In this document: positions 22,979-62,490 of the stretch, piece by piece
Numbering within the stretch: position 1 is the first letter of the stretch
Layout: every line of letters starts with the position of its first letter
Source: Progne subis subis
Lineage: Eukaryota; Chordata; Aves; Passeriformes; Hirundinidae
Assembly (NCBI GenBank): GCA_022316685.1
Contig: JAKJHU010000628.1
Coordinates: forward strand, 1-64,000
DNA length: 64,000 bases
Direction: 5' to 3'
Program-made: the position numbers and the translations under genes
Notes under the pieces: model-generated
Database searches by the model: none
Told to the model about the DNA's origin: nothing
The model's input: the letters and a program-made list of their open reading frames with translations, nothing else

Positions 22979-23595
22979 TTTTCAGAGAATCACAGAATCA
23001 GCAAGGTTGGAGAACACCTTGGAGATCATCAAGTCCAACCTCTGCCCTGACACTGCCATGCCTCCCTTGAGCCTCTTCTTCAGGATAAACAACCCCAGCA
23101 TCCTCAGGTTCTCCTCACAGGACTTGTGTTCCAGTCCCCTCACTAACATTGTTGTTCTTCTCAGGACACGCTCCAGCCCCTCCATGTCCTTTCTTAATTG
23201 GGGGGCCCAGAACTGGACACAGCACTCGATGTGCTGCCCAACCAGTGCCGAGCATGGGCGAAGAATCACTGCCCTGCTCGTGCTGCCCACACTGTCCCTG
23301 ATCCAGGCCAGGAGCCATTGGCCTTCTTGGCCACCTGGGCACACTGCTGGCTCATGTCCAGCCTGCTGTCCATCAGTCCATGCAAGTCCCTTTCTGCCTG
23401 GCTGCTGTCCAGCCACTCTGTCCCCAGCCTGCACCACTTCAGGGGTTGTTGTGGCCAAAGTGCAGGACTCAATATCTGGACTTGTTAAACCTCACATTGT
23501 TGGATTTGGCTTCCTGGATCCAGCCTGTCCAGGGCCCTGTGCACAGCTCTCCTACCCTCCAGCAGATCAACACTTCCAGCCAACTTAGTGTCACC
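22979..23595 (-). mobile_element. CR1 LINE 3' fragment
   Basis: Minus-strand CR1, longer than the copy at 10440. The 3' end lies at 22979 next to module U, and the 5' end runs into the minisatellite. Contains the 'catgtcctt', 'ggcccagaactggac' and 'cctgatccaggccagg' CR1 segments. Confidence 0.9.
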
Positions 23596-31462: not shown

Positions 31463-31580
31463 TTTCAGAGAATCACAGAATCAGCAAGGCTGGAAAAGAC
31501 CTTGGGCATCATCATGTTCAAGCTGTGTCCTGACACTACCTTGTCTCCCTTGAGAGTCCTTTTCTCCAGGATAAACAACT
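31463..31580 (-). mobile_element. CR1 3' end, left half of a CR1 foldback
   Basis: About 118 bp of CR1 3' end on minus, directly followed by a longer plus-strand CR1 piece. The two share sequence in opposite orientation. Confidence 0.82.
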
Positions 31581-31587
31581 GACAGGC

Positions 31588-32033
31588 TGGAGATAGAGTG
31601 GCTGGACAGCAGCCAGGCAGAAAGGGAAATGCAGGGACAGATGGATAGCAGGCTGGACAAGAGCCAGCAGTGTGCCCACATGGCCAAGACGGCCAATGGC
31701 TCCTGGCCTGGATCAGGGACAATGTGGCCATCAGTACCGAGGCAGCGATTCTTCACCTGTGCTCAGCATTCATTGGGCAGCACCTCGAGTGCTGTGTCCA
31801 GTTCTGGGCCTCCTAAATTAGGAAGGAAGTGGAAGAGCTGGAATGTGTCCAGAGAAGGGCAAGAAGGCTGGTGAGGGGTCTGGAACACAAGTCCTGTGAG
31901 GAGAGGCTGAGGGAGCTGGGGTTGTTCCTCCTGGAGAAGAGGAGGCTCAGGGGAGACAAGGCAGTGTCAGGGCACAGGTTGGACTTGATGATGTCCAAGG
32001 TCTTTTCCAACCTGGCTGATTCTGTGATTCTCT
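31588..32033 (+). mobile_element. CR1 3' fragment, right half of a CR1 foldback
   Basis: Plus-strand CR1 of about 450 bp ending in the standard 3' terminus next to module U. The mirrored pair is at 57160-57605 and 57612-57730. Confidence 0.88.
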
Positions 32034-32035
32034 GA

Positions 32036-32960
32036 AACCACCCTTGCAGCAGTTGCAAGATAAGCCTTGGACCTTCTCTTCAGAAGGTCCAGCAGCCCAG
32101 GTCCCTCAGCTTCTACTCACAGCACCAAAACCCATTATATCAGTCCTGCAGGAGCATGCAGACAATTCCTGAAGCACTTGGAGGATGATCCTGCTCCCCA
32201 GCGGACATTCCCATGGTGCCAACTCAGGAACTGAAACAGGGAATGGGGACAGAAAGGAATGGGCAACCAGGGATGGGCTGTTTGCAGGGGAGGGAACAGG
32301 GAGGGGCAAAATTAAGAAATTTTAACCAGGAAGGGGAAAGAAAGCCAAGGTGAGGCAAAGGAAATGCTAAGGGCAGTTTGGGGGTGGCTGCCAGACAGCC
32401 CTGGCTCTGAGCAACAACGTCTGCAGTGGCACAGGAAACTCACAGCTCATGGGAATAAACTTTCTGGATGACTTCAGAGGCCACCACAAACCTGAGTGAT
32501 TTCCCTGCTGTCCCCCAGCCCTTCCTGGCCCCAGGGGCTGATGGCATTTGTGCTCCCTCAGGTTCATCTCCCCACACCAACACCATGGGGGTGCTCACAC
32601 CTGCTCTGGGCAGTGCAAACAGGGGCTCCTGAGCCAGCGCTGCCGTGTCTGTACCTGCAAGGATGCGGCGCCTGTGTGAGCTGGGGGAGAGGCCAGGGCT
32701 GCAGAGGGGGGATGTTGTTGGCAGGTGCATGAGGATGCTGTGGGACGCTGCCCTGGGGTGTCCAGAGCAGTGGGGATGAATCAGCCCCTGCTCTGCTGCT
32801 CCTTCCCGTCTCCCCCAGGGACCTTGCAGAGCCGCAGCCATGCTGTTTGCCCCCAGCCTGCCCACGGCGACCCTGGGGCTGCTCACGGGGTATTTCTCTG
32901 CTGAGCATTGGCCTGGGCATGCTCTGGAGAGAGCCTGGGCAAGGAGCCTCAAGCCCTGTC
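32036..32960 (+). repeat. Module U, copy C
   Basis: Shorter version of 10781-12165; the internal 'gcagctcctcctccgtgcc' segment is deleted. At its right end it switches to 'cttgcaatgcaagat', a sequence found only in the C and D copies. Confidence 0.78.
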
Positions 32961-33180
32961 TTGCAATGCAAGATGTAACCAAAAAAATGTATTCTATTAC
33001 CATCTGCTAAAACCAGGTCGGCAGGTTGTTTATCTCTTCCATGACCCATTCATTCCTCATATCTCTGAGGGGGATCTTCTCTTAATGTCACAGCTGTGTA
33101 AACATCAAATGGGGCAGTGTTCTTGATCTCTTCCATGACCCATCCTCCCTCCAGGGAGATATCTTCTGGTAATGGGCCAT

Positions 33181-33708
33181 TGCCTCTCACTGCATGACTG
33201 ATAAAATTACAACATCCCATTGTGAGATGCTTCACCCAGAGGGAGGAGCCAAGCATTCTCACCTGGATATAAGCTGAGATTTAAATCACCAAGAGCAGCC
33301 CGTTTGCACTGGATACCCAGAGGAAGACCAGACCCGACTAAACCACCATTGGACCTTCAGAGGAAAACTACACCCTTCTACAAGATCATTGCTTCAACAA
33401 AACCACTTCTGTCACACCAGGAGGACTGCAGGCACAATTTGATTGAACTGCAAGCAGCACTCTGACTACCCGGGTGTCAGGTTGGATTCTGAGACTTATG
33501 TTTTGGGGATTTTTTGGTGGTGTCTTTTTTTACTACTGCACTTTTAGTTTAATTTTCCTACTGAAGAACTGATATTCCTATTGCCATATCCTTGCTTGAA
33601 AGCCCATTAATTTCAAAATTATAATTCAAAGAGAGGGAGTTTGTATTTTCCATTTCAAGGGAGGCTCCTACATTCCGTAGCAGATCCCTGTCTTACCAGC
33701 CTAAGACA
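33181..33708 (+). mobile_element. Probable solo LTR, arm C
   Basis: 528 bp with TG...CA ends, a 'ggatataag' TATA-type box near 33263, and an LTR-like 3' part (T-rich promoter-distal segment, 'aattataatt', terminal 'taagaca'). The mirrored copy is at 55262-55781. No clear target duplication. Confidence 0.55.
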
Positions 33709-34286
33709 GGGAGCTTGGCTCAGATATCCTGGGGGTGTCCTTGGGTTGGGTTTTTTCGGTTGGGCATGTTTAGAAAAGTAAGAACTCCAAAGCTGGGTGG
33801 AAAATGGCCCTTGGGGTGACATTGGGGGGTCCCAGTGGTGGCTGCTGGCAGAGGCAGCCTGGAGGAGCAGAGCCTTGTGTCCCCCTGGAGCCCAGAGTGG
33901 GGGAACACCGCAATTTGCAGGACCCTCAACAGCTTGGAGAGGGGCAGGGGGGACTCCTTGGAGCCCCTGCACCCCAAAGCAGAGAATAAGAGGAGAAGGG
34001 ACTCTGGGAACCCAAAATCCCAAGCATTCCTAAATATAAAATGGAAAAGGGGGGAGCTTTTCAGATTCCTGGGATTCTCAGCAGCCTGGGGAGGGCAGGG
34101 AGACCAGAGACAGGGAGCTCCACAAAGGAATTTTCAGGGCTGATCTTGGTGTTTGATAGGCTATTAGAGACTCCAGATGTCTGGTGACTTGTAGAGATGG
34201 ACTTGAGCAGAGGGACATTCAAACTCAACAAACTCATCCCTTGTTTTTGACCAAACCAGGATTTCCCATTCCCAAACCTTGGCTGG

Positions 34287-35447
34287 ATGGAGGAGGAGGC
34301 TGTGAGGAAGAGGAAGATGCCCCGGGACAGCCAGGAAGGTGAGGAGGAAGTCAGTGCCCCTTTCCCCCTCTCTCCTGCTCCATCTCCCAGCCCAGCATGG
34401 CCCCCAGCTGCAGGACAACCCTGCTGCCAACGCCGTCCTGCCGGGGATGTGTTGGGAGAATCTCCTTCCCCTTCCCTGTGGCATGGAGGCAAATCCCATC
34501 CACTCCTTGTCCTTCCTCCCCCAGACAAGGAGCTGAGGATGGAGACCAGGAAGGACAAATCTCTGCAGCAGAACCTCGTGGAAGAGGCAGTTTTGAGTGG
34601 CCCCATGGTACAGGAATCCAAAAGGGAGAAAAAGCGACGGAGATCCAACAGGAGGAAGGACTCCAAACCCATCCCAGGGTGCTCTCAGGAGGAAAGACCC
34701 ACCCTGTGCCAGGAAGGTGGACAGAGCTTCAGCCAGAGCAACACCCCTGTCCAGCACCAGATCATCCCCAGTGGGGAGAGACCCTACGAGTGTCCCAAGT
34801 GTCAGAAGAGGTTTCAGAGAAGCTCCAATCTCCTCAAGCACCAGCGGATTCACACAGAGGAGAGACCCTTCCGCTGCCCCGACTGCAGGAAGGGCTTCAA
34901 GCAAAACTCCCACCTCATCAGGCACCGGCGCATCCACACTGGGGAGAAGCCCTACGAGTGTGGGCAATGTGGGATGAGCTTCACCCACAGGTCCAACCTG
35001 ATCTCCCATCAGAAGATCCACACCAGGGAACGGCCCTACGAGTGTGAGCAGTGTGGGAAGAGCTTCAGCCGCAGCTCCAACCTGATCCGCCACCAGAACA
35101 TCCACGCTGAGGAAAGGCCATACAAGTGTGGGGAATGTGGGAAGGGCTTCAACCAGAGGTCCCAACTGATCATCCACCAAATGATCCACACTGGGGAGAG
35201 GCCCTACGAGTGTTCTGAGTGTAGGAAAAGGTTTCAGACCAGCTCACATCTCCTCCAGCACCAGCAGATTCACCGAGAGGAGAGGCCCTTCCGCTGCCCC
35301 GACTGCAGGAAGGGCTTCAAGCAAAACTCCACCCTCATCAGGCACCGGTGCATCCACACTGGGGAGAAGCCCTACAAGTGTCCCCAGTGTGGGAAGAGCT
35401 TCACCCGGAGGTCTCAGCTGAGCCAACACCAACAGAGGCACCGGTAA
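34287..35447 (+). CDS. C2H2 zinc-finger protein, eight fingers, candidate intron inside
   Basis: The open frame is 386 codons. The first part is acidic then basic ([10 protein letters not shown]). A degenerate finger follows near residue 141 (only one Cys of the pair kept), then eight canonical C2H2 fingers with TGEKPY-type linkers from about residue 169 to the stop. It is probably a nuclear DNA-binding regulator. Residues about 18-79 look like a retained 186-bp intron at 34339-34524: it begins 'gtgagg', ends 'cccccag' after a pyrimidine run, and keeps frame either way. Spliced, the protein is about 324 aa. The frame is also open upstream to 34260. A ninth, broken finger follows the TAA at 35445-35447, and AATAAA occurs at 35866-35871. 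The upstream exon structure is unknown. Confidence 0.85.
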
Positions 35448-45338: not shown

Positions 45339-45976
45339 TGTTGATGCCTTCAGGAACCCAGAAATAAAGTAACAGCCTTGGAGATAATATTATAGAGGAG
45401 GTAGTAGAAAGGCTGATCTTTATTGGAGGCCTCCAAGGGCCAGATATGGAAAATGTCCACAAAACGCTCAGCCCCCCAAAAGGTGAATACAGTTCTATAA
45501 TTGTAGCAGATTAGCATATTTGACAAAAATCACCAGTTAGGAGCACAGGTGGTGAGGCATGACAAAATTCCTTGCAAGAGTCACTCTGTCCATGACTGGA
45601 CACTTCAGGCACAGCAAGGAAGGAAAGCAACAACAGCACCAAACAAAATCCAAGCAATCAAACCAGAAACGAACCGAGGACTGTCCCTGTGTGTTTGTGA
45701 CAAGAGCACAGTGAGGGCAAGGATAAAAGGAACACGGCCAAAAAGCGTCACAGAGCTCCAAATTAACAGGACTTGACTTGTACCCGAACCTGAACTTACA
45801 CCTTCAACTTCACAGTTTAGCAAAAGAACAGCACTTGACAGTATTTATCCGAACTTAGAAACTATGACGTAACCATTTACAGAGGAATAGTATTAACTTT
45901 GCTTATAACTTCTATTAAACCTGGAATTATGGTAAGGCACTTCACAAACCACTGACTCAGAAAACTCTAAACCCTA
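45339..45976 (-). mobile_element. LTR fragment carrying the ERV2 insertion site
   Basis: On minus it ends 'ggcatcaaca' at 45339 with AATAAA at plus 45419-45424, typical of an LTR 3' end. The 5' end is not found before ERV2 at 45977, so the provirus may have inserted into this element. Confidence 0.55.
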
Positions 45977-46641
45977 TGTCCTGGTTTGGAGACAAATTTG
46001 GGGGAAAACCCTTGTATAGGATCTCTCTGGGAAGCAAACCTAAGTGGCTCCTCCCTCTAACCAGTCTGAAAAAAAAAAAAACTTTTGTGGAGAAAAGTGG
46101 AAAAAACTATTTTACTAAACAAATAAAGTGCATACAAGTATAAAGAATGAATAATATGAAACAATAAAACCTCTCGTTCTGAAGTGAGATGGCAAATTGA
46201 GAAAGTCCTTGCCGTGGGTGGAGCTCGGCTCTCTCTCAGTCTCTCCTCAGTCCCAGTCCCTCCGGCGCTGCTGGAAAATGCCGAGCTCCAGGCCCCGGTG
46301 GGCCGCAGGTGCAGCCCCCAGTGCTCCCCTGGGTTTTCAGTCCAGAGCAGGTTTAAACAGTTCCAAGAAAAAAGAAAGAAATAAAAACAGTCTCGGGAAC
46401 TTCTCTGCCCTAGCTAGCTGAAACTAACTAAAAGCAAAAAGATCTCTGTCCTGCAGTCTCTCTAAGCTTCTGCTGAACACCGTCTGGAGAAGAATGTGGA
46501 GGAGTCAGGCAGTTTTCTCAAAACAAACTCCGCGCTTCTCCTTGCTCTTAGAACTAGTCTTAAAGGCACAGGACTCAATATACAGAGTTCAAACAGAACA
46601 GACGATTGGGGTTACAAGCATTATAAAGTTACCCTAGGACA
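45977..46641 (-). repeat. ERV2 3' LTR
   Basis: Starts TGTCCTGG and ends CTAGGACA on plus. Differs from the 5' LTR at 14 bases and one A-run length; 11 of the differences are T here against C there on plus. Its outer flank is the target duplication. Confidence 0.95.
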
Positions 46642-46657
46642 TTCTACCCCTTATCCC
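46642..46657 (-). other. ERV2 polypurine tract
   Basis: On minus 'gggataaggggtagaa' directly precedes the 3' LTR's TG. Confidence 0.65.
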
Positions 46658-46899
46658 TATATTGTCAATTTACTAAAACTTATATATACTCTAGCTCTAC
46701 ACACACATACATCTATATAAAAAACAATATGCAATATACAACTACATACAGTGGCAGTACTATTCAGCACACAATGATAATTACACACGGTTCTCAACCA
46801 ACAATCAAATCTCCCTGGGGTACACATCGTGTGGTTCTATTTTTCTGCATTACCCACTATGTGCAGCCTGGCCCTTGAGCAAGGACAATCCCACTGATG

Positions 46900-47640
46900 G
46901 GATCTTCTGTACTTGAAGCAGGATTGATCTAAACTGTCTTCCTTAACAAACTTTTTATATGTACTACTGGGACTTTCTCTCCATCTACTGTATGTAGGGG
47001 CTCAGACTGGGCAGGGCCTGCTCGGTTGGTGGAACTTCGGGTGTTAACTAACCAGGTGGCCTTTGCTCGATGCTGCTCTCAATTTTTGAATGATCCCCCA
47101 CCCAGTGCTTTTAGGGTGGTTTTTAGCAGTCTATTGTATCTTTCTACTTTCCTTGAAGCTGGTGCATGATAGGGGATATGGTACACCTACTCAATGCTAT
47201 GTTCTCTAGCTCAGGTGTTTATAAGGCTGTTCTTGAAATGAGTTCCATTGTTTGACTCAATCTTCTCAGGGGTACTATGCTTCCAAAGAACTTGCTTTTC
47301 AAGGCCCAGGATGGTGTTCTGGGCAGTAGCGTGAGGCACAGGGTAGGTCTCTAGCCATCTAGTTGTGGCTTCTACCATGGTCAGTACGTAGCGCTTGCTT
47401 TGGCGGGTTTGGGGAAGGGTGATGTAGTCAATTTGCTAGGCTTTTCTATACTTATACTTGGACCATCGCTCACTATACCATAGGGGCTTTACTCGCTTGG
47501 CCTGTTTGATGGCAGCACACGTCTCACAGTTATGGATAACCTGAGAAATACTGTCTATGGTTAGATCTACCTTTCGGTCTCGGGCCTACTTATAGGTGGC
47601 ATTTCTGCCTTGGTGACCTGAGGCATCATGGGCCCATCGA
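46900..47640 (-). pseudogene. ERV2 pol: integrase
   Basis: On minus the frame shows a CETCAAIK zinc-domain segment, an IDYI core start preceded by an in-frame TAG (47436-47438), and a SNNGTHF segment where the second catalytic Asp is normally found (Asn codon at 47250-47252), then YHIPYHAPAS. Stops and the altered catalytic residue inactivate it. Confidence 0.8.
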
Positions 47641-48600
47641 GCTAGGAACAACTCTCCCTTGTGTTCCTAATTTAAGTCTATCTTTGACACCTCTATTTTT
47701 GCAGCTTGATCTACCTGCTCGTTGTTTTGGTGCTCCTCATTAGCCCGACTCTTGGGGACATGGGCATCTACATGACGGACTTTGACAGGTAGCTTCTCTA
47801 CTTGAGTGGCAATGTCTTTCCACTCATCTGTAGCCCAGATTGGCTTTCCCCTGCGCTGCTAATTGGCTTTTTTCTACTTCTCCAGCTATCCCCACAGAGC
47901 ATTAGCTACTATCTACGAATCAGTGTAGAGGTAGAGCTTTGGCTACTTCTCTCTTTCAGCAAGTTGCTGTCTAGGGCCAGTTGAACAGCTTTGAGTTCAT
48001 CAAGTTGGCTTGACCCACCTTCTCCTTCAGTGGCTTGTGCAACTTGTCGTGTGGGGCTCTATACGGCTGCTTTCTACTTTTGTTTCATCCCAACGATGCG
48101 GCAGGAACCGTCAGTGAAAAGAGCGTAGCAAGTTTCTTCTGCTGGCAGTTGGTTGTATGGTGGAGCTTCTTTAGCACGTGTCACTTGTTCTTGCTCTTCT
48201 TCATCTGTGAGACTAAAGTTTTCACTTTCCGGCTAGTTTGTAATTATTTCCAGAATCTCAGGGCGATTTGGGTTTCTAATGCGGGCGCGCTGAATGATGA
48301 GGGTAATCTATTTGCTCTATGTGGCATTGGTGGCATGGTGGGTAGAGGGTACTTCTGCTTTAAACATCTATCCCAGCACTGGTAGTCGAGGTGCCAGCAG
48401 GAGTTGTGTTTTAGTGCCTACTACTTCTGAGGCAGCTTGAATTCCTTTATAGGCGGCTAAGATTTCCTTCTCTGTTGGAGTGTAGTTGGCTTCGGACCTT
48501 CTGTAGCTTCGGCTCTAGAATCTCAGTGGCCGGCCCCGAGTCTCCTCAGGCACCTTCTGCCAAAGGCTCTAGGACAGGCCATTGTTTCTGGCTGCTGAGT
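47641..48600 (-). pseudogene. ERV2 pol: RNase H and connection, with stops
   Basis: The YTDS catalytic motif is readable near 47920 on minus and is followed by TAG at 47913-47915 and another at 47886-47888. The rest of the region shows scattered pol-like pieces broken by TAG codons. Confidence 0.65.
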
Positions 48601-48781
48601 AGAGCACGTTCTTTACATGTGGTCCCGTCTTGACTGGGCCAAGGGCTACCGCATGAGCGATCTCTTGTTTGATCTGGGCAAAGGCTTGTTGCTGTTCAGG
48701 GCCTCAGTGGAAATTATTCTTCTTGCGTGTGACCAGGTAGAGAGGGCTCACAATTTGGCTGTACTCAGGAATGTGCATCTT

Positions 48782-49760
48782 CTAGAAACTTATGGCGCTT
48801 AGGAAAGCTTGTGTTTCCTTTTTGTTGGTTGGTGGACACATTGCTGTGATTTTGTTGATGACTTCAGTGGGAATCTGACGCCTTCCATCTTGCCACTTTA
48901 TTCTTAGAAACTGGATCTCTCGAGCAGGTCCCTTAACTTTGCTCTTCTTGATAGCAAAGCTAGCTTTCAGGAGAATCTGGATGATCTTCTCTCTTTTCTC
49001 AAACACTTCCATTGCCATGTTCCCCCACATCATGATGTCATCGATATACTGTAGATGTTCCGGAGCCTCACCCTTTTCTAGTGCAGCCTGGATCAGTCCA
49101 TGGCAGATGGTGGGGCTGTGTTTTTACCCCTGGGGCAGTCGGTTCCAGGTGTACTGCACACCCCTCTAGGTGAAAGCAAACTGAGGCTTGCATTCTGCAG
49201 CCAGAGGAATGGAGAAAAATGCGTTAGCAATGTCAATTGTGGCGTACTATTTTGCTGCCTTGGACTCCAGCTCGTACTGGAGTTCCAGCATGTCCGGCAC
49301 AGCAGCGCTCAATGGTGGAGTCACTTCGTTCAAGGCACGGTAGTCCACAGTCAATCTCCATTCTCCGTCAGACTTGCGCACAGGCCAGATAGGGCTATTG
49401 AAGGGTGAGTGGGTTTTGCTGACTACCCCTTGGCTCTCCAGCTCACGGATCATCTTGTGGATGGGGATCACAGCATCTCGAGTTGTTCTGTACTGTCGGC
49501 AATGCACTGTTGAAGTGGCAATTGGCACTTGTTGCTCTTCCACTTTTAGAAGACTTACAGCAGATGGGTTCTCTGATAGTTTAGGCAAGGTATTTAACTG
49601 CTTAACATCTCTTGTCTCTACAGCTGCTATCCTGAATGCCCACTTAAATCCCTTCGTGTCTTTGTAATAGCTATTCCGGAGGAAGTCTATGCCCAAAATG
49701 CACGGAGCCTCTGGGCCAGTCACAATAGGGTGTTTCTTCCACTCATTTCCAGTCAGGCTT
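48782..49760 (-). pseudogene. ERV2 pol: reverse transcriptase with intact YIDD
   Basis: Frames 49247-49873 and 48782-49033 plus the intervening text cover RT: VVSKTHSPFNSPIWPV, EWRLTVDYRALNE, RLPQG, and YIDD at 49037-49048. Stops lie at 49247-49249, 49166-49168 and 49124-49126, where neighbours suggest tryptophan. The frame is otherwise continuous, so G-to-A changes account for most of the damage. Confidence 0.88.
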
Positions 49761-49920
49761 ACATCAGTTTCCACTAAAGTAAAATCTTGTGAGCCCCCTG
49801 TCACCCCAGCAATGGAAATAGATTCTTCCCTCACGTCTTGATGGGAGTAATGTGCATTGTGCACCAGTGTCAACTAAGGCCTCATATTTTTGTGGTTCTG
49901 ATGTGCCAGGCCAACGAATC
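49720..49920 (-). pseudogene. ERV2 pro: aspartic protease
   Basis: ALVDTGAQCTLLPS is readable on minus with the DTGA codons at 49860-49871, intact. A frameshift just downstream (near 49840) moves the rest, including ILGIDFL, into the frame that continues to RT. Confidence 0.82.
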
Positions 49921-50108
49921 TACACAGTCTAAAAAACACGGTTTTCCTTAGCCTCTACTTGGCTAGAGGCAGGGCCCCTCTAAGCCTGATTATCCTTATT
50001 TCCCTGGGTAACCGGAGCTGCTTCCTTCTTGCTCGAACTTCTTCTTACAGTCTTGCCATCCAACAATTTACGCAGCTGTTGTGTCATAGCATCAGTAGAT
50101 TCTCCATC

Positions 50109-51720
50109 TTATCTTTTCATGTTTTCTCCACAATCACGCAGGAAGGACCACAGCTTAGCTCGTGGAATGCCTTTTCCCTCTCTATCTAGGGAACGTTTGC
50201 GTGTGGTGCCAGAGCCTCTAACTTGTACTGCAGAGATTTGGAGAATGTTCTCTTTGAGTTCTTTGTGATTCTCCTCCATCTTGTCTGCTAATCCCCGCAC
50301 CTGTGTTTCCAAAGCTGCAATTCTTGCATGTGTTGGACTATGCACGGCATCTGCATATGTTCGGAGCTTCTTCGCTATATTCAGCACAGTCTCCTCTGTC
50401 TCATCCCGCTTCATTATTGCTAAAGCAGAGGAGTATTCTTGTGGCCTAAGTCGTACAAGTTTTCGCCACATTACAGGTGTACATGGTACTAAGTCGGGGT
50501 TCCTAGTGTTTAGGTCATCTGAGAAGACAATCTCCGCCACTGCTATTTCTTTCAAGCGCTGAATCTTTTGTTCAATGGTTTTCTACTGAGTTTGCTGCAG
50601 ATAGAGATCGTCGGCACACAGATATCTTTGTGCCACGCTTCTTAAGACCCGTTCCCAGAGACTGCAAGGACTAGCCTCCCTCATCATTTCTTGGTCAATA
50701 ACTGGATCATGTGATAGGGATCCAAGATGTCTCACTTCAGTGCCATCCAGTATTGTAGCCTCGCCTGCAGCATCCCAAAGACGGACTAACTAACTAATTA
50801 TAGATTCATCAGGTCGTTGAGTATAATCCTTTCTTAGGCTACGAAGGTCCTTCAGGGAAAAGGACTCAATAGTATTTCCTGATCTTGTAGCAGTTGGTCG
50901 GGCTCCTGATCTTGTAGCAGCTGGTTGGGCTTCTGATCGTGTGATAGTTGGTTGGACTCCCGATCTTGTACCAGTTGGTTGGGCTTCCGATTTTGTATCA
51001 GTTGGTTCAGCTTCTGACTGTGTATCATCAGTTGCTTCAGCTTCTGATTGTGTGTCAGGTGGTTTGACTTCCGACTGGGTGTCAGGAGGCACTGAGGATC
51101 CTTCACCTGAATCATCATCTACTGGTCGATTGGTTTTGTCCGTGTGCTTCTTTCCCTTCTTTACTGCAGCAACTGCCGGTGTCTTAACTTTTACTGTCTG
51201 GTTTAGCTGCAGCCTGAATAGCTGTGGGGTTGGCTGCAGCCTGAGTGACTGATTTATCTCCCTGCTCCCTTGCTTCTATCTGCTGCCCTACAGTGTTTAG
51301 CAGTGTGTGACTCATTCTAGAAAAGCTATAAGCTATATAGAGGAAAGTTACCAGGTGAAATACCAGGGAGGTGGGGTCTTTAACATTCAGGAGACCCTGA
51401 ACATTCTCCAAAAGTGATGTAACTGACTTAAAAGAAAAGAAGGAAAAAAGAGGCTGAAGAGCCTCATCCCCTACTCCTCCTCTAACAAACTGGGTGCAGT
51501 TATTGATAAATCCCCAAAACATGCTGCTGGAACTAGGACGCAGGGTAGGACGAAAGAACCATAAACTGAACATATCCAGAACAAACTCCAGTATCTTTAT
51601 AAGCTTCTTGTAAGCCATAATCACTGAACCCAGCAAAATAACTATTTTAATTTGTGCATCCTTAGTGTAAAAGCTGTATGTTAAGGACAATATTGGAGCT
51701 ATTTCTGGGTAGGAAAACAA
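50109..51720 (-). pseudogene. ERV2 gag, three open pieces
   Basis: 51184-51720 encodes an N-terminal part with hydrophobic helices. 50790-51092 encodes a linker with tandem nine-residue repeats. 50109-50555 encodes a C-terminal part with a predicted coiled coil (a THARIAALETQVRGLADKM-type segment). No CCHC knuckle is seen. Assignment is by position before protease. Frames are interrupted between pieces. Confidence 0.7.
50881..51099 (-). repeat. 27-bp tandem repeat inside ERV2 gag
   Basis: Eight units starting at 50881, 50908, 50935, 50962, 50989, 51016 (30 bp), 51046 and 51073. On minus they encode a nine-residue TRSEAQPT-like repeat. Confidence 0.9.
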
Positions 51721-51915
51721 ACCTAGGGACTAGAAAGGTATTAAGACCTCAAAAAAGCCTAGGGAACAGAAATGCAGAAAAGACTCTATTCTAAGAGACG
51801 TTAGGACTTCAAGAAGCAACATGGCCACTGTCTGTTTAATCCCTACCCAAAGGACAACAACAACAACAAAAAAAAATGCAGTTAATAGTAATACAAGTTT
51901 TTTCTACTCTCTTTT

Positions 51916-51933
51916 GCCCCGCAGTAGGCGCCA
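51916..51933 (-). other. ERV2 primer-binding site, possibly tRNA-Lys type
   Basis: On minus TGGCGCCTACTGCGGGGC, ten bases inside the LTR. Matches the tRNA-Lys complement at 13 of 17 positions. The long spacer and the mismatches make the tRNA assignment weak. Confidence 0.5.
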
Positions 51934-51943
51934 ATTAAGGGTA

Positions 51944-52609
51944 TGTCCTGGTTTGGAGACAAATTTGGGGGAAAACCCCTGTATAGGATCTCTCTGGGAA
52001 GCAAACCTAAGTGGCCCCTCCCTCTAACCAGTCCGAAAAAAAAAAAAAACCTTTGTGGAGAAAAGTGGAAAAAACTATTTTACTAAACAAACAAAGTGCA
52101 TACAAGTATAAAGAATGAATAATATGAAACAATAAAACCTCTCGTTCTGAAGTGAGATGGCAAATTGAGAAAGTCCTTGCCGTGGGTGGAGCTCGGCTCT
52201 CTCTCAGTCTCTCCTCAGTCCCAGTCCCTCCGGCGCTGCTGGAAAATGCCGAGCTCCAGGCCCCGGTGGGCCGCAGGTGCAGCCCCCAGTGCTCCCCTGG
52301 GTTTTCAGTCCAGAGCAGGTTTAAACAGTTCCAAGAAAAAAGAAAGAAAAAAAAACAGTCCAGGGAACTTCTCTGCCCTAGCTAGCTGAAACTAACTAAA
52401 AGCAAAAAGATCTCTGTCCTGCAGTCTCTCCAAGCCTCCGCTGAACACCGTCTGGAGAAGAATGTGGAGGAGTCAGGCAGTTTTCTCAAAACAAACTCCG
52501 CGCTTCTCCTTGCTCTTAGAACCAGTCTTAAAGGCACAGGACTCAATATACAGAGTTCAAACAGAACAGACGATTGGGGATACAAGCATCATAAAGTTAC
52601 CCTAGGACA
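51944..52609 (-). repeat. ERV2 5' LTR
   Basis: 666 bp; TGTCCTGG at 51944 and CTAGGACA to 52609, followed by the CCCTA target duplication. Retains C on plus at all 11 sites where the 3' LTR has T. Confidence 0.95.
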
Positions 52610-52614
52610 CCCTA

Positions 52615-53499: not shown

Positions 53500-54771
53500 G
53501 ACCACCAGCCCAGTGTCTTTGCAATGTGGGTCCCCTGATGGGGGATGGAGTTGGAGCAGTGCAGGAAGCTTTCCCCACAGTCGGGACACTCGCAGGGATT
53601 CCCTTACCAGGTGCCTCTGTTGATGTTGGCTCAGGTGAGACCTCTGGGTGAAGCTCTTCCCACACTGGGGACACTCGTAGGGCCTCTCCCCAGTGTGGAT
53701 GCGCTGGTGCCTGATGAGGTGGAAGTTGCGCTTGAAGCCCTTCCTGCAGTCGTGGCAGTGGAAGGGCCTCTCCTCTGTGTGAATCTGCTGATGTACAATG
53801 AGAGTGGAGCTAGTCTGAAACCTCTTCCCACACTCAGAACACTCGTAGGGCCTCTTCCCAGTGTGGATCATTTGGTGGATGATCAGTTGGGACCTCTGGT
53901 TGAAGCCCTTCCCACATTCCCCACACTTGTATGCCTTTCCTCAGCATGGATGTTCTGGTGGTGGATCAAGTTGGAGCTCTGGCTGAAGCTTTTCCCACAT
54001 TGCTCACACTCGTAGGGCCTCTCCCCAGTGTGGATGCGCTGGTGGGTAATGAGGGTGGAGTTTTGCTTGAAGCCCTTCCTGCAGTCAGGGCAGCGGAAGG
54101 GCCTCTCCTCTGTGTGAATCTGCTGGTGCTGGAGGAGATTCGGAGCTGGTCTGAAACCTCTTCCTGCACTCGGAACATTCGTAGGGCCTCTCCCTGGTGT
54201 AAATGATCTGGTGCTGGACAGGGGTGTTGCTCTGGCTGAAGCTCTGTCCACTTTCCTGGCACAGGGTGGGTCTTTCCTCCTCAGAGCACCCTGGAATGGG
54301 TTTGGAACCCCTCCTCCCACAAGATCTCTGTATCTTTTCCTCCCCACTGGATTCCTCTGCCATGGAGCAGCTCAAAATGACCTCTTCCACGAGGTTCTGC
54401 TGCAGGGATTTGTCCTCCCTGGTCTCCATCCTCAGCTCCTTGTCTAGGGGTGGAAGGACAAGGACAGGATGGGATTTGCCTCCATGCCACAGGGAAGGGG
54501 AAGGAGATTCTCCCAACACATCCCCAGCAGGACAGCATTGGCAGAGGCATTGTCCTGCAGCCGAGGGCCGTGCTGGGCTGGGAGATGGAGCAGGAGAGAG
54601 GGGAAAAGGGGCACTGACTTCCTCCTCACCTTCCTGGCTGTCCCGGGGCATCTTCCTCTTTCTCACAGCCTCCTCCTCCATCCGGACAAGGTTTGGGAAT
54701 GGGAAATCCTGGTTTGGGCAAAAGCAAGGGATGAGCATGTTGAGTTTGAATGTCCCTCTACTCAAGTCCAT
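53500..54771 (-). pseudogene. C2H2 zinc-finger pseudogene (arm D copy)
   Basis: Mirror copy of the gene at 34287-35447. The start region ([10 protein letters not shown] at about 54681) and the candidate intron boundaries are kept. The first full finger is cut by a frameshift near 54142, a second frameshift follows at about 53935, and the last three fingers are in a third frame (53494-53871). Finger identities differ in places from arm C (for example STLIVHQ and NFHLIRHQ), so the two copies may have exchanged or lost fingers. A protein with the full array cannot be made. Confidence 0.88.
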
Positions 54772-55261
54772 CTCTACAAGTCACCAGACATCTCGAGTCC
54801 CTAATAGCCTATCAAACACCAAGAGCAGCCCTGAAAATTCCTTTCTGAAATTTCCTGTCTCTGGTCTCCCTGCCCTCCCCAGGCTGCTGAGAATCCCAAG
54901 AATCTGAAAAGCTCCCCCCTTTTCCATTTTCTATTTAGGAATGCTGGGGGTTTTGGGTTCCCAGAGTCCCTTCTCCCCTTATTCTCTGCTTTGGGGTGCA
55001 GGGGCTCCAAGGAGTACCCCCTGCCCCTCTCCAAGCTGTTGAGGGTCCTGCAAATTGCAGTGCTCCCCAGCATCTGGGGTCCTGGGGGACACAGGGCTCT
55101 GCTCCTCCAGGCTGCCTCTGCCAGCAGCCACCACTGGGACCCCCCAATGTCACCCCAAGGGCCATTTTCCACCCAGCTTTGGAGTTCTTACTTCTCCAAA
55201 CATCTCCGACCAAAAAAACCCAACCCAGGGACCACTCAGGATATCTGAGCCAAGCTCCCCC

Positions 55262-55781
55262 TGTCTTGGGCTGGTAAGACAGGGGTCTGCTATGGAAGGC
55301 AGGAGCCTCCCATGAAATGGAAAATACAAACCTCCTCTCTTTGAATTATAGTTTTGAAATTAACGGGCTTCCAAGTAAAGACATGGCAATAGGAATATCC
55401 ATTCTTCAATAAAATTAAACTAAAAGTGCAGTAGTAAAAAACACCACCACCAAAAAAGCCCAAAAAATAAGACAGAATCTAACCTGACACCCGGGTAGTC
55501 AGGGTGTTGCTAGCAGTGCAATCAAATCGTGGCTGCAGTCCTCCTGGAGTGACAGTGGTTTTGTTGAAGCAATGATCTTGTAGAAGGGTGTAGTTTTCCT
55601 TTGAACGTCCAGTGGTGGTGTAGATGAGTCTGGTCTTCCTCTGGGAATCCAGTGGAAACCGGGCTGCTCCTGGTGCTTTAAATCTCAGCTTATATCCAGG
55701 TGGGAATGCTTGGCTCCTCCCTCTGGGTGGAGCATCTCACAATGGGATGATGTAATTTTATCAGTCATGCAGTGAGACTCA
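55262..55781 (-). mobile_element. Probable solo LTR, arm D
   Basis: Inverted copy of 33181-33708 with small indels; its presence in both arms means it predates the duplication. Confidence 0.55.
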
Positions 55782-56019
55782 ATGGCCCATTAACAGAAGA
55801 TATCTCCCTGGAGGGAGGATGGGGTGTGGAAGAGATAAAGAACACTGCCCCATCTGGTTTTAACAGCTGCCCCATTAAGAGAAGATGCCCCTCAGAGATA
55901 TAAGGAATGAATGGGTCATGGAAGAGATAAACAACCTGCCCTCCTGGTTTTAACAGATGGTAATAGAATATATTTTTTTTCGGTTACATCTTGCATGGCA
56001 AGACAGGGCTTGAGGCTCC

Positions 56020-57155
56020 TTGCCCAGGCTCTCTCCAGAACATGCCCAGGCCAATGCTCAGCAGAGAAAAGCCCCGTGAGCAGCCCCAGGGTGGCCGTGG
56101 GCAGGCTGGGGGCAAACAGCATGGCTGGGGCTCTGCAAGTTCCCTGGGGGAGATGGGAAGGAGCAGCAGAGCAGGGGCTGATCCATCCCCACTGCGCTGG
56201 ACACCCCAGGGCGGCGTCCCAGAGCGTCCTCATGCACCTGCCAACAACATCCCCCCTCTGCAGCCCTGGCCTCTCCCCCAGCTCACACAGGTGCTGCATC
56301 CTTGCAGGCACAGACACGGCAGCACTGGCTCAGGAGCCCCTGTTTGCACTGCCCAGAGCAGGCGTCAGCACCCCCATGGTGTTGGTGTGGGGAGATGAAC
56401 CTGAGGGAGCACAAATGCCATCAGCCCCTGGGGCCAGGAAGGGCTGGGGGACAGCAGGGAAACCACTCAGGTTTGTGGTGGCCTCTGAAGTCAGCCAGAA
56501 ACTTTGTTCCCATGAGCTGTGAGTTTCCTGTGCCACTGCAGGTGTTGTTGCTCAGAGCCAGGCCTGCCTGGCGGCCACCCCCAAACTACCCTGAGCATTT
56601 CCTTTGCTTCACCTTGGCTTTCTTTACCCTTCCTGGTACAAATTTCTTAATTTTGCCCCTCCCTGTTCCCTCCCCTGCAAACAGCCCATCCCTGGTTGCC
56701 CATTCCTCTCTGGACCCACTCCCCATTTCATTTCCTGAGTTGGCACCATGGGAATGTCCTTTGGGGAGCAGGATCATCCTCCAAGTGCTTCAGGAATTGT
56801 CTGCAGGCTCCTGCAGTGCCACGAGCTGCTCCCTTGCCGGAGGCACCACAGGCCAGGGGGGCACATCTGGGCTGCTGTGTCTGGCTGTGGGGTCCCTGTT
56901 CTGGGCAAGGAGGAGGAGCTGCAGAGGCTCTGCAGGACTGACAGGATGGGCTTTGGGGCTGTGAGGAGAAGCTGGGGCACATCTGGTCTGCTGTGTCTGG
57001 CTCTGGGGCTCCCTGTTCTGGGCAAGGAGGAGGAGCTGCAGAGGCTCTGCAGGACTGACAGGGTGGGCTTTGGGGCTGTGAGGAGAAGCTGAGGCACCTG
57101 GGCTGCTGGACCTTCTGAAGAGGAGGCCCAAGGCTCATCCTGCAACTGCTGCAAG
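56020..57155 (-). repeat. Module U, copy D
   Basis: Inverted module U. It keeps sequence deleted from copy C and contains a 116-bp direct duplication at 56861-57092. Confidence 0.78.
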
Positions 57156-57159
57156 GGTG

Positions 57160-57605
57160 GTTTCAGAGAATCACAGAATCAGCAAGGTTGGAGAACACCT
57201 TGGAGATCATCAAGTCTAGCCTGTGCCCTGATACTGCCTTGTCTTCCCTGAGCCTCCTCTTCTCCAGGATAAACAACCCCAGCTCCCTCAGCCGCTCCTC
57301 ACAGGACTTGTTTTCCAGACCCCTCACCAGCCTTCTCGCTCTTCTCTGGACACACTCCAGCCCCTCCATGTCCTTCCTAAACTGAGGGCCCAGAACTAGA
57401 CACAGCACTTGAGGTGCTGCCCAAACAGTGCCGAGCACTGGGGAAGAATCACTGCCCTGCTCCTGATGTCCACACCATTCATGATCTAGACCAGGTGCCA
57501 TTGGCCGTCTTAGCAACCTGGGCACACTGCTGGCTCATGTCCAGCCTGCTGTCCATCAGTCCCCCCAGGTCCCTTTCTGGCTGGGTGCTGTCCAGGCACT
57601 CTGTC
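57160..57605 (-). mobile_element. CR1 3' fragment, part of foldback in arm D
   Basis: Mirror of 31588-32033, with the standard CR1 3' end at 57160. Confidence 0.88.
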
Positions 57606-57611
57606 CCCAAC

Positions 57612-57730
57612 CTGTCGGTTGTTTATCCTGGAGAAGAGGAGTCTCAAAGGAGATAAGGGAGTGTCAAGGCACAGGTTGGACTTGATGATGTCCAAGGTCT
57701 TTTCCAATCTTGCTGATTCTGTGATTCTCA
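57612..57730 (+). mobile_element. CR1 3' end, other half of foldback in arm D
   Basis: Mirror of 31463-31580. Confidence 0.82.
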
Positions 57731-57924
57731 GAAACCACCCTTGCAGCAGTTGCAGGATGAGCCCTGGGCCTCCTCTCCAGAAGGTCGAGCAGCCCAGGTT
57801 CCTCAGCTTCTCCTCACAGCCCCAAAGCCCATCCTGTCAGTCCTGCAGAGCCTCTCCAGTGCAGGGGAAACCCTGGGCAACTGAATAGCAGAATCAATAT
57901 GATTTTAGCAGATGCTGTTTATTT

Positions 57925-57985
57925 AATAGTTTATATATATATAAAAAAAATATATATATTTAATATATATTTTATTTATGTTAAA
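57925..57985. repeat. AT-rich microsatellite
   Basis: TA-dinucleotide-rich tract, expanded relative to the matching place in arm C near 31290. Confidence 0.75.
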
Positions 57986-58332
57986 CTCCAGTTATTGATT
58001 CTAGCACTACTGTCCACACGTACAGGTGCCTCTCAATTGGCTAAGCCGCTTGTTCACGAGGCAGGCACACATCCTTCAGGACTCCTCGTTGGTCAAACGT
58101 CCATCATCGTGCTGTGTGTCCTCTAAGTTTTGCATTGTTTGTAAACAGTTTCTCAGGCTCTTGGTTCTTATTTCTAGTCCTGTTGTTATCTCAGTAGCCT
58201 TGACGAATTCCTGAGAGCTCCTGAGCAAGGAGCCTCAAGCCCTGTCTTGCAATGCAAGATTTATCCTAAAAAGTGTATTCTATTACCATCTGTGAACACC
58301 AGCTGGGGCAGGTTGTTTATCTCTTCCATGAC

Positions 58333-58983
58333 TGTTGAGGGTTAAGTTCTCCTGTAGAATTTCCCCCCCCCCCCCCCCCATGAGTTGCTAGATTTTAAGT
58401 AGGCGCAGTTTAAGCGGTGCTTAAGCTGACAAAAGAAGTTGATCACTTGGTTTTGGGGAAGGGAGGAGGCTCCGGAGAGAGCTGGGGGGTGGCCTCACTT
58501 CTCTCAGCTTTCCCGGGGAGGACGGTCGGACTACGGGTAGCTGCCTGGAGTCCACAGCTAACGGAGGAGTTTGGTCCTGGGAATTCTATCATCTGTTAGA
58601 GCGCCCAGGACTTCGGAGTTTCTTCGTTACCTTGCTGGATTTTGGGTCAGCCCGGGGTCCAGCCGCTGCGAGTTCTTCGGCACTGCCCACTTTGCCTGCC
58701 GGGGCACTCCCTGCCTGCCTGCTGAGGACAAATCCATCGCTTCCAGCTTGCAGCCATCAGCGACGGACTTTGCCACCGTTTGCCCTCAGGGTTCTTGGTT
58801 CTGTTTTACTGTTATTATAAGTGCTGTTGTTGTTTGTCTGTCCTGTTATATTTACTAGTAAAGGACTGTTATTCCTTTTCCCTATAGCTCTGACCGAAAG
58901 TTTTTTTTTTTAATCTTCTAAATTATAATAACCCGGAGGCTTGCCTCTCCTTAGCAGACAACTGTCTTTTTCAAACCAAGACA
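58333..58983. mobile_element. Solo LTR with 5-bp target duplication, arm D only
   Basis: 651 bp, TGTTGAGGG...CCAAGACA, flanked by ATGAC at 58328-58332 and 58984-58988. The uninterrupted site is seen in arm C near 30928. Contains a run of 17 C (58363-58379) and a 'ttataag' box. Orientation is uncertain; TATA-type sequence suggests plus. Confidence 0.93.
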
Positions 58984-59373
58984 ATGACCCATCCCTCATA
59001 TCTCTGAGGGGGATCTTCTCTTAATGGGCCAGCTGTGTAAAACCAAATGGGGCAGTGTTCTTGATCTCTTCCATGACCCATCCTCCCTCCAGGGAGATAT
59101 CTTCTGGTAATGGGCCATTGCCACTTTGAGAAGGGCTCTGCTGACCCAGGTTCCTGTGACCCACACTGAGAAGTCACCTGTCCCTTTCTCTGGCCCTGGC
59201 AATGGTGTGAGGTGGGACTGAAGAACATGAGGGTCTGGCCATGGTCCCATCATTGTATTTGAGCCCATCTCGGGTCATTTCTGGCTGGGCTCTGCCCCAG
59301 CCCACAGAGTGTGACCTCAGCCCTGACTCTGTGCCAGCTGCTGTGCCTGAGCCCTGCAAAGACTAAAGGTCAC

Positions 59374-61126
59374 TGTCATAGGTTCGCACAGTTTGGTATT
59401 TCGTTAGGGAGGAATGTGAAGTATTACCCTGTCAGGACCCTGGAAATAGTTTTAGAAGGGACAAGGACCTATCAGAAGCTGGTTTGAAATATTGGCATCT
59501 GCTTTGGCCACTGAGAATGTTGAATGAGACTTTGGGCAGTACCCATATAAATCCTGGGTTTGGTCAGGTCAGGCCCTTTTCCTCCTGCTCAGCTGAACAG
59601 GTAACATCCAGTGGGTCCTACTGCTCCCCACACCCCACCTCCCCCTTCGGGGGGAAGCTCGCCCGAGGCCCAGCCGGACTCCATCGGCTCCCGGGGGGAG
59701 GAGAGGTTGCAGCTTAACATCAACCACTTTGTAAAAACCTCCCTGGAGACCCCATAGCAGGGAGGGATCTCCCCTGATAACAACTCTGGGCCCGGTTTGG
59801 CCGAGGCTGCCCCGATTGTCACCGAGGGCTGGGCAGAGCTCTCCTCCCGCTCCCCTCCTCCGGTGTCTTCCAGACAGAGAAGAAAGAGTGGAGGGAGGAA
59901 ACCAGGCCGATCTGAAATGGAGAGACTGCTGCCTGGAGCAGAAATCACATGGCCACTGCAGGCCTGGACAGAGTTAACCCTTTCCTGGCAACATGGAGCT
60001 TCCAAGGCCTGACCCTTCCCTGAGAGAGAAAAGAAAGAGACAGAGGGGACGTAGGAAAGACACTGCATGAAGTCAGTGGAGCAGGAGTGAAAGAACGGAT
60101 AAAGATTATTAGAAGAGGGATTGAGGATGTGGACATTTTTAACCAAACTTTTCTGCTGTAAACTAGGGAGAAATGGACTGTTTCTTGTAACATCTTAATG
60201 TTGTTTGGAGGAATGCTAGTTCCAGTCAAAGTTGGGGATTGATATGATTGAGATTTAAGAGGGAATCTTAAAGCCCCTCACTCCTGGTGTAAAAGGAGGT
60301 CTCAGCCTTTGAGACCAAGATGATTTTAGAGAGGAAGTGATTTGAAGCCCTCAGCTCCTGGGGTAAAAGGAGGTCTCTATTTCTTTTGAGATAAAGACAC
60401 TTTTAGAGCTAGCAGAGAATCCTTGTTTTATACTAGAAGAAGCTTTCTTAAACAGTACCCCAGATACACTGAGAGGCCTCAGCTCCTGGGGTAAAAGGAG
60501 GTCTCTATTTCTTTTGAGATAAAGACACTTTTAGAGCTAGCAGAGAATCCTTGTTTTATACTAGAAGAAGCTTTCTTAAACAGTACCCCAGATACACTGA
60601 GAGGCCCATGAGTAGCCAGGGGAAAGGCTCGTAATGGGTGGAACAGCACAATCTGCAAAAACTCCAAGCAGATGCAGATTTGTGACATTGAGAACCCCAG
60701 GGCTGTTTTTCTCTTGTGACAAATGTGTCCATAAGACTCTAGAGAGACTCCTCTCCCAAAGTGGAGAAAAATTACGTGTAAATGGTGAAACTGACTGAAA
60801 ATCACAGGTTGTGTCTCTCTGTGTTGTTTGGAAGAAAGTTAACAATTTGTAAGGGTAGGGAAGAGTGCTTTGAAGTTGCATTTTGGTTTTTTTGGGGTTT
60901 TTTTTCCCATTTTTTCTTTTCTTGTCTTTTCCATTCTTTTAGTGTGTGTTAAAAAAAAAACCTTTGTTTTTTAAGCTTGAGCCTGCTTTGTTTCTCCTGA
61001 TCCTCTCCCACAAAAAGAGAGTAAACACTAAGATCACTACACTAAATTTAGCAAAAAAAAATCAACAAATGTGTAGTCACTACATTAATTAGTGTTTCAG
61101 CCCCGTTTTAACTAAAACAATTATAC
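59374..61126 (+). mobile_element. 1.6-kb LTR, copy in arm D
   Basis: Inverted counterpart of 28921-30537. TATAAA at 59546-59551. Carries the 128-bp tandem duplication. The terminal ATTACA has become ATTATA. Confidence 0.72.
60349..60604 (+). repeat. Perfect 128-bp tandem duplication
   Basis: Units 60349-60476 and 60477-60604 are identical as read. Arm C has one unit (about 29450-29560). Confidence 0.92.
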
Positions 61127-62490
61127 CTTCCTATGGAAAAGAACTGTCCTTCTTGTCCAGGTGCCCATGGCCACAATTGGGATTCCACCTCCAGCATTGC
61201 CTGTTGTGAGAGACTGGAGGAGATTGTTGTCTGGAAACATTTTGTGTGTGAGGGAGGAAGGGGCAGGTCCAGCCTTGCCCTGCCCTGAAACCCCAGCACT
61301 GCCCTGCCCTGTAACCCCAATCCCCCAGAGCCTCTATCCCAGCCCAGCAGTGTCTGCCAATCCCTGGCACACCAAAGGCAATGCTCCACAGCCACCTCTG
61401 CAGCCCCCAGCCCAGCTCCTGAGAGACCAAGTGACCCAAAGTCCCTCCTGGGGGAAGGGCCCAGGAAGACCATGGGGTATTCAAGGCTGACCACAAGGCA
61501 AGCACACATCTTGACCCCACCTCCTCTTGGAATTTCTGTCTGAACACAGCTGTAATCCAGGAGTTGGTAGCTGTGTGTGTGCTTCTCTATATCTTATTTG
61601 TCTTTCTCTCTTTCTGTGTTGTCATTCTTCAAATTCCCTCCTCTTGCTCATTTGGAGTGACTTAAAATTGAACAGGCTTAGAGTTTGTAAAGTTGAATGG
61701 GACAAGTTTAATGCTTTCAGAAGTGTTTCTTGTTGATTGAATATTGTATTAAATCTTTTGCCAAAATTTCTCTGTTTTTTCTAAAGTTGTCAGTAAAGTC
61801 TGTTTTGTTGTTTTGAACTCCTGGGAATCTGTTGGTATTTCTCCAGTGCATCCAACTCAGAGTACACAAATAATTGTAATTCCTTTTAATGTCTAAGTGA
61901 GAGAATTGTTTGGGGGATGGGGGTCAGGTCTTGTCTGTCCTGCTTGGCAGAGCCCAGGCAGGGCTTTCACAGCCACATTGCACACTCCATTTCCCACCTG
62001 CACCTGCTGGTGCCCCTGAGCTCTGCTTGCCCAGCCCCAGGGACGCTCCCCTTGTCTGCCCATTCCCCACGGTCTCTGGGCAGGGATGGCCTCAGTGGGG
62101 GCTGCTGACAGCCTCAGACACTTGGAGGCTGCTGCTGGATTTGACTTCTCCAGAGGCTTGTTCAGCCTTCAGCTGTTCAGTGTCCCAGGGCTCATTAACA
62201 TTCAGAATACCTTAACAGCCAAGCCTCTGGGAATAATTTGATTTAGGTTTTCAAATTTTTGTGGTTAATTAACCGATTTCTGAAGTGTATTAAAAGTGAA
62301 TATATATTTACAAAAGACAGTGAGAAAAGATGTTTTATGTCTGGTTCAGGTTTTGTTTCTGTTAATGCCTTGATATGTGCAATCTCCAGTTGACACTGAA
62401 TCCAAGTATATTCTAATGCAGTTTGAATAGATACAAAAATCAAGACCCTTTATGTCTGGCAATCAATCAGACTCTGTCCTTACTCCTCTT

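Follow-up and report, generated by a model that had tools for sequence, protein, structure and literature searches.

Do the one-way differences between the two long terminal repeats (LTRs) of a bird provirus record the editing of its complementary DNA (cDNA) by a host enzyme, and if so, which enzyme could have been responsible? The question is raised by a 6,633-base provirus at positions 45977-52609 of a 64,000-nucleotide stretch of DNA from Progne subis subis (contig JAKJHU010000628.1, positions 1 to 64,000, referred to here as the window), which belongs to a host assembly of 1.166 Gb in 2,896 contigs (GCA_022316685.1). The coding strand of the provirus is the minus strand, and CCCTA stands on both of its sides, as read directly from the sequence. 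A first inspection of the window (the original prediction) had noted an excess of one substitution type between the LTRs and had attributed it to APOBEC3G-type editing. By comparison with independent copies of the same family in the same genome, we find that the provirus carries a strand-specific load of G-to-A changes, which very probably arose when a host cytosine deaminase edited the minus-strand cDNA in a single round of reverse transcription, before integration.

Strand and direction of the substitutions

A piece of pol (49250-49873) was used to locate relatives of the provirus within its own genome; the best 40 matches were scored, a procedure that undercounts the copy number. The 30 loci retrieved comprise the window itself, a second full copy on contig C809, and 28 independent copies; searches of viral_contigs and genome_contigs gave no usable DNA of relatives. 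With the LTR starts taken as 45978 and 51945 (one base in), 6,632 sites were examined and polarised region by region against up to 26 reference copies in the centre and up to 18 at the ends, the end pieces coming from 20 copies. Six loci were left out as references (L009, L010, L014, L033, L059, and L061, the last of which gave no LTR pair), and 159 sites were dropped where fewer than 10 reference copies were available, agreement was below 90%, or the site was unaligned.

On the viral strand, the 6,473 usable sites hold 179 G-to-A changes (of 1,699), compared with 9 C-to-T (of 1,463), 2 A-to-G (of 1,739), 4 T-to-C (of 1,572), and 17 transversions, which corresponds to about 28 G-to-A changes per 1000 sites. 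This excess over both C-to-T and A-to-G is that of APOBEC-type hypermutation. In the central part alone, 103 G-to-A changes stand against 7 C-to-T (Fisher p = 1.7e-21), with GG sites set apart from other sites (p = 4e-23), and in pairwise comparison about 100 G-to-A and about 5 A-to-G changes over roughly 3.5 kb separate the window from the majority of the 28 copies. The original prediction had proposed such a same-genome comparison, and had named relatives with A at the same sites, or G-to-A no commoner than C-to-T, as outcomes arguing against editing; neither was observed.

Decay after integration, including CpG deamination and a strand bias arising by chance, is an alternative source of such changes, and 2 of the 11 one-way LTR sites do lie in plus-strand CpG. 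However, the viral strand carries only 9 C-to-T changes beside its 179 G-to-A, and changes of any kind are confined to the 3' LTR in 12 cases and to the 5' LTR in none. Window-specific changes in the flanks, compared with their duplicates, amount to 2 each of G-to-A, C-to-T, A-to-G, and T-to-C plus one transversion on one side, and to one G-to-A and one A-to-G on the other. These changes are balanced, and the bias therefore ends at the LTRs. Furthermore, four duplicated repeat pairs of the window served as controls, and in three of them the substitution types are roughly even. Taken against these counts, decay has a negligible probability.

The editing has left its mark on the coding regions. 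Within the chosen gag and pol frame ranges, 21 of the 23 covered in-frame stops (19 TAG, 2 TAA, and 2 TGA) are TGG in at least 90% of the relatives, while the other two are stops in the relatives as well; copies lacking the in-frame stops of the provirus are present in the genome. Six stops had been placed at expected tryptophan codons from the outset (47436, 47886, 47913, 49124, 49166, and 49247, all TAG or TAA), and this assignment is borne out: four are among the 21, and for the two that lie outside the ranges TGG stands in 23 of 24 copies in one case and in all 24 of 24 in the other. An integrase asparagine had also been read as a replaced aspartate; although the match is weak (E = 0.015), it aligns with the Asp of S-D-x-G in the two solved integrases that match best.

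Sequence context of the edits

The changes are strongly ordered by the following base, with 128 of 473 GG sites edited (0.271), 44 of 547 GA (0.080), 4 of 360 GC (0.011), and 3 of 316 GT (0.009). Among the 163 C sites on the plus strand of the 5' LTR, 9 of 50 CC sites differ in the 3' LTR, as against 2 of 113 other C sites (Fisher p = 0.0004). Within the GG class, edited sites by following base number 26/76 for GGT, 58/179 for GGA, 23/98 for GGC, and 21/120 for GGG, the last being below the other GGN sites (107/353, p = 0.006). By preceding base, they number 60/154 for TGG, which lies above the rest (p = 0.0001), 45/162 for AGG, 9/43 for CGG, and 14/114 for GGG.

The description of this footprint as APOBEC3G-type is thus correct at the level of the dinucleotide, where CC is the target, and breaks down at the third base, since GGG, i.e. 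CCC on the edited strand, is the least edited of the GGN sites. The hotspot of APOBEC3G is CCC, while AID has WRC as its hotspot and SYC as its coldspot (PMC5391955). An AID-like gene is present in the genome, and AID itself, acting with its usual WRC targeting, might be considered as the editor. Yet only 5 of 408 WRC-type sites are edited, compared with 128 of 473 CC sites, and the most edited sites, ACC and TCC, are not WRC by the motifs given in PMC5391955, which makes AID an improbable source.

Gradient along the element

The editing load also changes along the element. In viral order, edited GG sites amount to 4/51 in the 5' LTR (0.08), to 4/36, 3/29, 9/39, 14/56, 8/40, 15/40, 23/43, 20/43, and 16/44 in nine internal bins, and to 12/52 in the 3' LTR (0.23). 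Internally the rate rises from about 0.10 to 0.53 in the viral 5'-to-3' direction (Spearman 0.82, p = 0.007), and edited GG sites lie closer to the 3' end than unedited ones (position test, p = 2e-6). By feature, all on the minus strand, the viral 5' LTR (51944-52609) carries 4 polarised G-to-A changes, all in GG. The leader and start of the gag region (51360-51943) carry 6 against 1 C-to-T. In the gag-pro-pol body (47760-51359), where the in-frame stops fall mostly at TGG codons of relatives, there are 103 against 7, and in the 3' end of pol (integrase) with the region up to the 3' LTR (46642-47759; rve match at 47214-47435) there are 52 against 1. The viral 3' LTR (45977-46641) carries 14 polarised G-to-A changes.

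A comparable rise toward the 3' polypurine tract is described for APOBEC3 editing of human immunodeficiency virus 1 (HIV-1), where it is ascribed to the time for which the minus strand stays single-stranded (PMC4488724). The rising gradient, together with the LTR asymmetry described below, fits an editing load in the provirus that follows single-strand exposure during reverse transcription, although the peak does not quite adjoin the 3' LTR.

LTR asymmetry and the phases of editing

In reverse transcription, edits made in the minus-strand LTR before the synthesis of plus-strand strong-stop DNA reach both LTRs, while later ones reach the 3' LTR only. The LTR alignment contains 14 substitutions, as originally counted: on the viral strand, 11 pair G in the 5' LTR with A in the 3' LTR, no site shows the opposite pairing, and the remaining 3 are transversions, with no A/G difference on the plus strand. 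The base following the 11 edit-type sites is G in 9 cases, A in 1, and T in 1, again in agreement with the first count. Relatives read G at 9 of the 11 sites, the exception being one 5' LTR of 20 at one of these nine. Sites 46067 and 46124 are polymorphic in the family, so that not all 11 can be taken as edits and 9 raw differences are clean.

Over the 640 LTR positions at which both reference sets agree, 4 G-to-A changes are common to both LTRs, 9 are found in the 3' LTR only, and none in the 5' LTR only. This combination of shared and 3'-only edits is the pattern of 3'-LTR-specific hypermutation. The LTR comparison on which the prediction was built had the asymmetry right, but a comparison of this kind cannot reveal the 4 shared edits, nor a possible fifth at 46589, which has A in both LTRs and is polarised on the 3' side only. 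The 3 transversions are also confined to the 3' LTR. In 18 other LTR pairs of the family that are not clearly hypermutated, G-to-A changes total 5 in the 3' LTR only and 5 in the 5' LTR only; the asymmetry is therefore not general.

Errors of the reverse transcriptase under unbalanced nucleotide pools would, like editing, be strand-specific. Minus-strand errors are, however, copied to both LTRs, in contrast to the 9 strictly polarised G-to-A changes found in the 3' LTR only, and neither the order GG > GA >> GC, GT nor the rise toward the 3' end would, by our reasoning, be expected from them. We give such errors next to no weight.

Editing by a deaminase, on the other hand, would account for the pattern as follows. 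In a young retroviral family active in a passerine-like germ line, a host deaminase of single-stranded DNA, preferring the second C of CC and to a lesser degree TC, would act on the minus-strand cDNA and leave G-to-A changes on the viral strand. Early edits, already in place when the minus-strand LTR served as template for plus-strand strong-stop DNA, would appear in both LTRs, and later ones, made when only the minus strand of the 3' LTR was single-stranded again, would be confined to that LTR. The cDNA would already have been crippled at integration; later, the segment would have been duplicated, and some of the duplicates would now be solo LTRs that keep the edited state.

The edits also affect dating, as had been pointed out from the start: without the 11 edit-type differences, the LTRs differ at 3 of about 664 positions rather than 14. 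At a bird substitution rate near 2e-9 per site and year, this corresponds to roughly 1 rather than 5 million years. Within the family, 7 of 19 comparable LTR pairs are without any substitution (one of them compared over 325 bases only), and the family is therefore young.

The same insertion in duplicated segments

LTRs nearly identical to the edited 3' LTR were found elsewhere in the genome, and 7 were retrieved; one further place, on contig C648, was left out of this set. At first sight these LTRs could refute editing and suggest that the A states were inherited from an edited parent or sub-family. However, in each of the 7 one LTR stands alone, bordered by CCCTA and by the left and right flanks known from the window. 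They are thus solo LTRs that go back to this very insertion and lie in duplicated segments, so this objection was rejected. The two polymorphic LTR sites also favour inheritance, and part of the edits common to both LTRs, or some internal ones, could have been inherited. As an account of the whole load it is nevertheless very unlikely: G is the state of the independent copies at 9 of the 11 LTR sites and, by the counting rule, at the 179 polarised sites, and an edited parent would have put the same state into both LTRs. Such a case is documented in the mouse, where the 3'-LTR-only set of one insertion is found in both LTRs of an independent insertion (Mtv17/Mtv23; PMC12548423).

The 7 solo LTRs have the edited state at 10 of the 11 sites, the exception being 46622, and the editing therefore predates the duplication. 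At 46394 and 46612 they have the 5'-LTR state; the absence of the window's 3'-LTR state there suggests that these two changes may be later still or may result from a crossover. On C809, a full copy with a 5' flank 99.5% identical to that of the window agrees with it in state at each of the 19 LTR sites examined in both and carries 91 of the 103 central edits, with only 18 G-to-A differences pairwise. The description of the provirus as a single-locus case thus has to be abandoned. The 3' flank of the C809 copy has no match in the window; this stretch (L040, 804-1634) lies near the contig end and may reflect a rearrangement or an assembly join.

Other hypermutated copies of the family

Two of the 28 independent copies are hypermutated themselves, both on contig C2542: L014 (3221658-3225283; 31 G-to-A against 2 C-to-T) and L033 (2564570-2568195; 38 against 3). 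Their changes of known context lie mostly in GG (27 of 31 and 25 of 37), and their raised A-to-G counts in pairwise comparison with the window (22 and 29) represent edits of their own. The LTR pair of L014 has 5 G-to-A changes in the 3' LTR only, none in the 5' LTR only, and 2 in both, along with a few other changes on either side. Two more copies, L027 (9 against 2) and L038 (10 against 3), are perhaps hypermutated as well. The share of hypermutated copies among the 28 is not a frequency, as the sample consists of the closest matches to an edited query.

Candidate deaminases in the host genome

Birds are not known to have APOBEC3; in this genome, a search with the NAD1 profile gave 7 matches, which we assign to two APOBEC1-like genes, an AID-like gene, and APOBEC2. 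The inference that another AID/APOBEC enzyme was at work thereby gains concrete candidates. The APOBEC2 exon has APOBEC-2 as its best PDB match, and the two tandem APOBEC1-like exons have APOBEC-1 (E = 9e-34 and 8e-18), with the HxE and PCxxC motifs intact (HAE...SPCxxC); the APOBEC1-like genes are known from exons rather than full gene models. The gene with split exons that we take to be AID-like is so named by resemblance. The two APOBEC1-like genes stand in tandem about 10 kb from it (C1112:7712931-7735991; L082-L087). The AID-like catalytic exon is in two frames in the assembly, perhaps through an assembly frameshift.

An APOBEC1-like enzyme is favoured because the CC/TC order, with CCC lowest, fits neither AID nor APOBEC3G exactly. 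The best-supported candidate, in our view, is one or other of the APOBEC1-like pair next to the AID-like gene, with about even chances of its being the editor. APOBEC1 homologues have been described in the anole and the zebra finch, and the lizard protein mutates DNA and keeps LINE elements in check (PMC3880073). More tentatively, and with somewhat less than even confidence, we propose that a bird APOBEC1-like enzyme, rather than AID or APOBEC3, with a CC preference of its own (ACC, TCC > GCC > CCC), serves as the germ-line counterpart of APOBEC3G against retroviral cDNA, and that LTR pairs record its editing before and after plus-strand strong-stop synthesis.

Evidence that weighs against pre-integration editing

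Several observations do not fit smoothly with the interpretation given here. The gradient peaks at about 47.2-48.4 kb, leaving 0.6-1.7 kb between it and the 3' LTR downstream. The middle of the 3' LTR (46125-46392, 268 bases) contains 24 CC sites and no edits, and its counterpart in the 5' LTR is equally free of them, in contrast to the edited ends of the LTRs; the longest unedited LTR run has a permutation p of 0.012, and single-strand folding as its cause was unsupported (p = 0.21). Site 46382 adjoins a run of A, and the state assigned to the solo LTRs there varies with the alignment. The reference copies are the closest matches to an edited copy and not a random sample. One of the four control repeat pairs (20411-23305 and 10456-13333) is uneven, with C/T 41, T/C 43, G/A 27, and A/G 12.

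Finally, a protein-level test against predicted proteins, mostly of birds, gave 32 G-to-A, 1 C-to-T, 1 A-to-G, and no T-to-C changes in its first setting (25 of the 32 in GG), and 24 and 39 G-to-A against 3 C-to-T each in two other settings. The pooled homologue proteins, however, show 544 G-to-A-type, 323 C-to-T, 289 A-to-G, and 158 T-to-C changes. Private changes are likewise skewed in 33 barn swallow copies (44 G-to-A against 16 C-to-T) and 46 crane copies (48 against 27). Because the pooled homologues share the G-to-A-type excess, this test is weaker than it appears, and our conclusion therefore rests on the DNA test.

Identity and surroundings of the provirus

The provirus may be ERV-L-like (class III), a class marked by a 5-base target duplication and a spumavirus-like pol; here it has the 5-base target-site duplication CCCTA, at 45972-45976 and, identically after the right LTR, at 52610-52614, which also borders the 7 solo LTRs, and a weak integrase match. 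Pieces of the provirus between stops match RVT_1 and RNase_H below the Pfam cut-off and rve above it, and the solved integrases matched by the integrase piece, which include that of PFV, reach a best E of only 0.015. Its closest predicted proteins, from the barn swallow, are up to 93% identical across 94% of the piece compared. A contig of 385 bases catalogued under Klebsiella pneumoniae (P0140) encodes a piece 79% identical to the reverse transcriptase of the provirus, and is probably bird DNA inside a bacterial assembly. The gag region contains 27-base tandem repeats (50877-51085), the copies of which are 61-82% like the reference stretch.

Inverted duplications lie on both sides of the provirus (27558-35319 and 53649-62486; 85-95% identity in several blocks). 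The window also contains a C2H2 zinc-finger frame (34251-35444), two open olfactory-receptor frames of 319 residues each within an inverted duplication (12351-13307 on the minus and 20439-21395 on the plus strand), and another retroelement with a reverse-transcriptase and RNase H-like frame (5631-6221, minus strand).

Discussion

Knisbacher and Levanon reportedly found APOBEC-edited LTR retrotransposons in birds in 2016, so that the editing of bird LTR elements is, as the original prediction stated, already published, and the provirus is a further, well-resolved example of a known phenomenon rather than a first. It shares with those elements strand-specific clusters of G-to-A changes, and differs in being a single insertion that is resolved for its LTR phases, its gradient, its flanks, and its duplicates, alongside the deaminase genes of its own genome. 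The 3'-LTR signature has a counterpart in mouse retroviruses; there, APOBEC3 and a betaretrovirus are involved, in contrast to an ERV-L-like element in a bird lineage that is not known to have APOBEC3. The literature search, which did not extend to Knisbacher and Levanon 2016 itself, gave no report of 3'-LTR-specific editing in a bird, and we claim no priority.

From the 2016 study, PMC6497032 relays that the strongest editing signal is found in birds, above all oscine passerines; the study is also cited in PMC6523648 and PMC12548423. The density observed here, about 28 per 1000, is lower than that in two zebra finch rows of PMC12548423 (57.2 and 71.5 per 1000 bp). The same 2025 article describes 3'-LTR-specific hypermutation of endogenous mouse mammary tumour viruses, with edits in both LTRs and G-to-A changes in the 3' LTR only, and it proposes the same cause, a 3' LTR minus strand that is single-stranded twice, and gives the same warning on LTR dating (PMC12548423). 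HIV-1 edited by human APOBEC3G resembles the provirus in its CC target on minus-strand cDNA and a load rising to the 3' polypurine tract (PMC4488724, PMC5391955). It differs in that the provirus has one gradient and that CCC, the hotspot stated there, is the least edited CC site here, and the enzyme would have to be another member of the family. Non-mammalian APOBEC1 homologues exist in lizard and zebra finch, although the excerpt of PMC3880073 connects them neither with edited retroviral cDNA of birds nor with a preference for CC.

At this one locus, the editing of a bird's retroviral cDNA matches that of mammals in the strand affected and in the 3'-LTR signature, and has a comparable gradient, in a host lineage from which no APOBEC3 is known. 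Its quantitative target motif argues against AID and can be compared with the two APOBEC1-like genes of the same genome. Ages of bird endogenous retroviruses that are based on LTRs can be inflated by such editing, and the naive age of this provirus, with 11 of its 14 LTR differences of the edit type, is several times too old.

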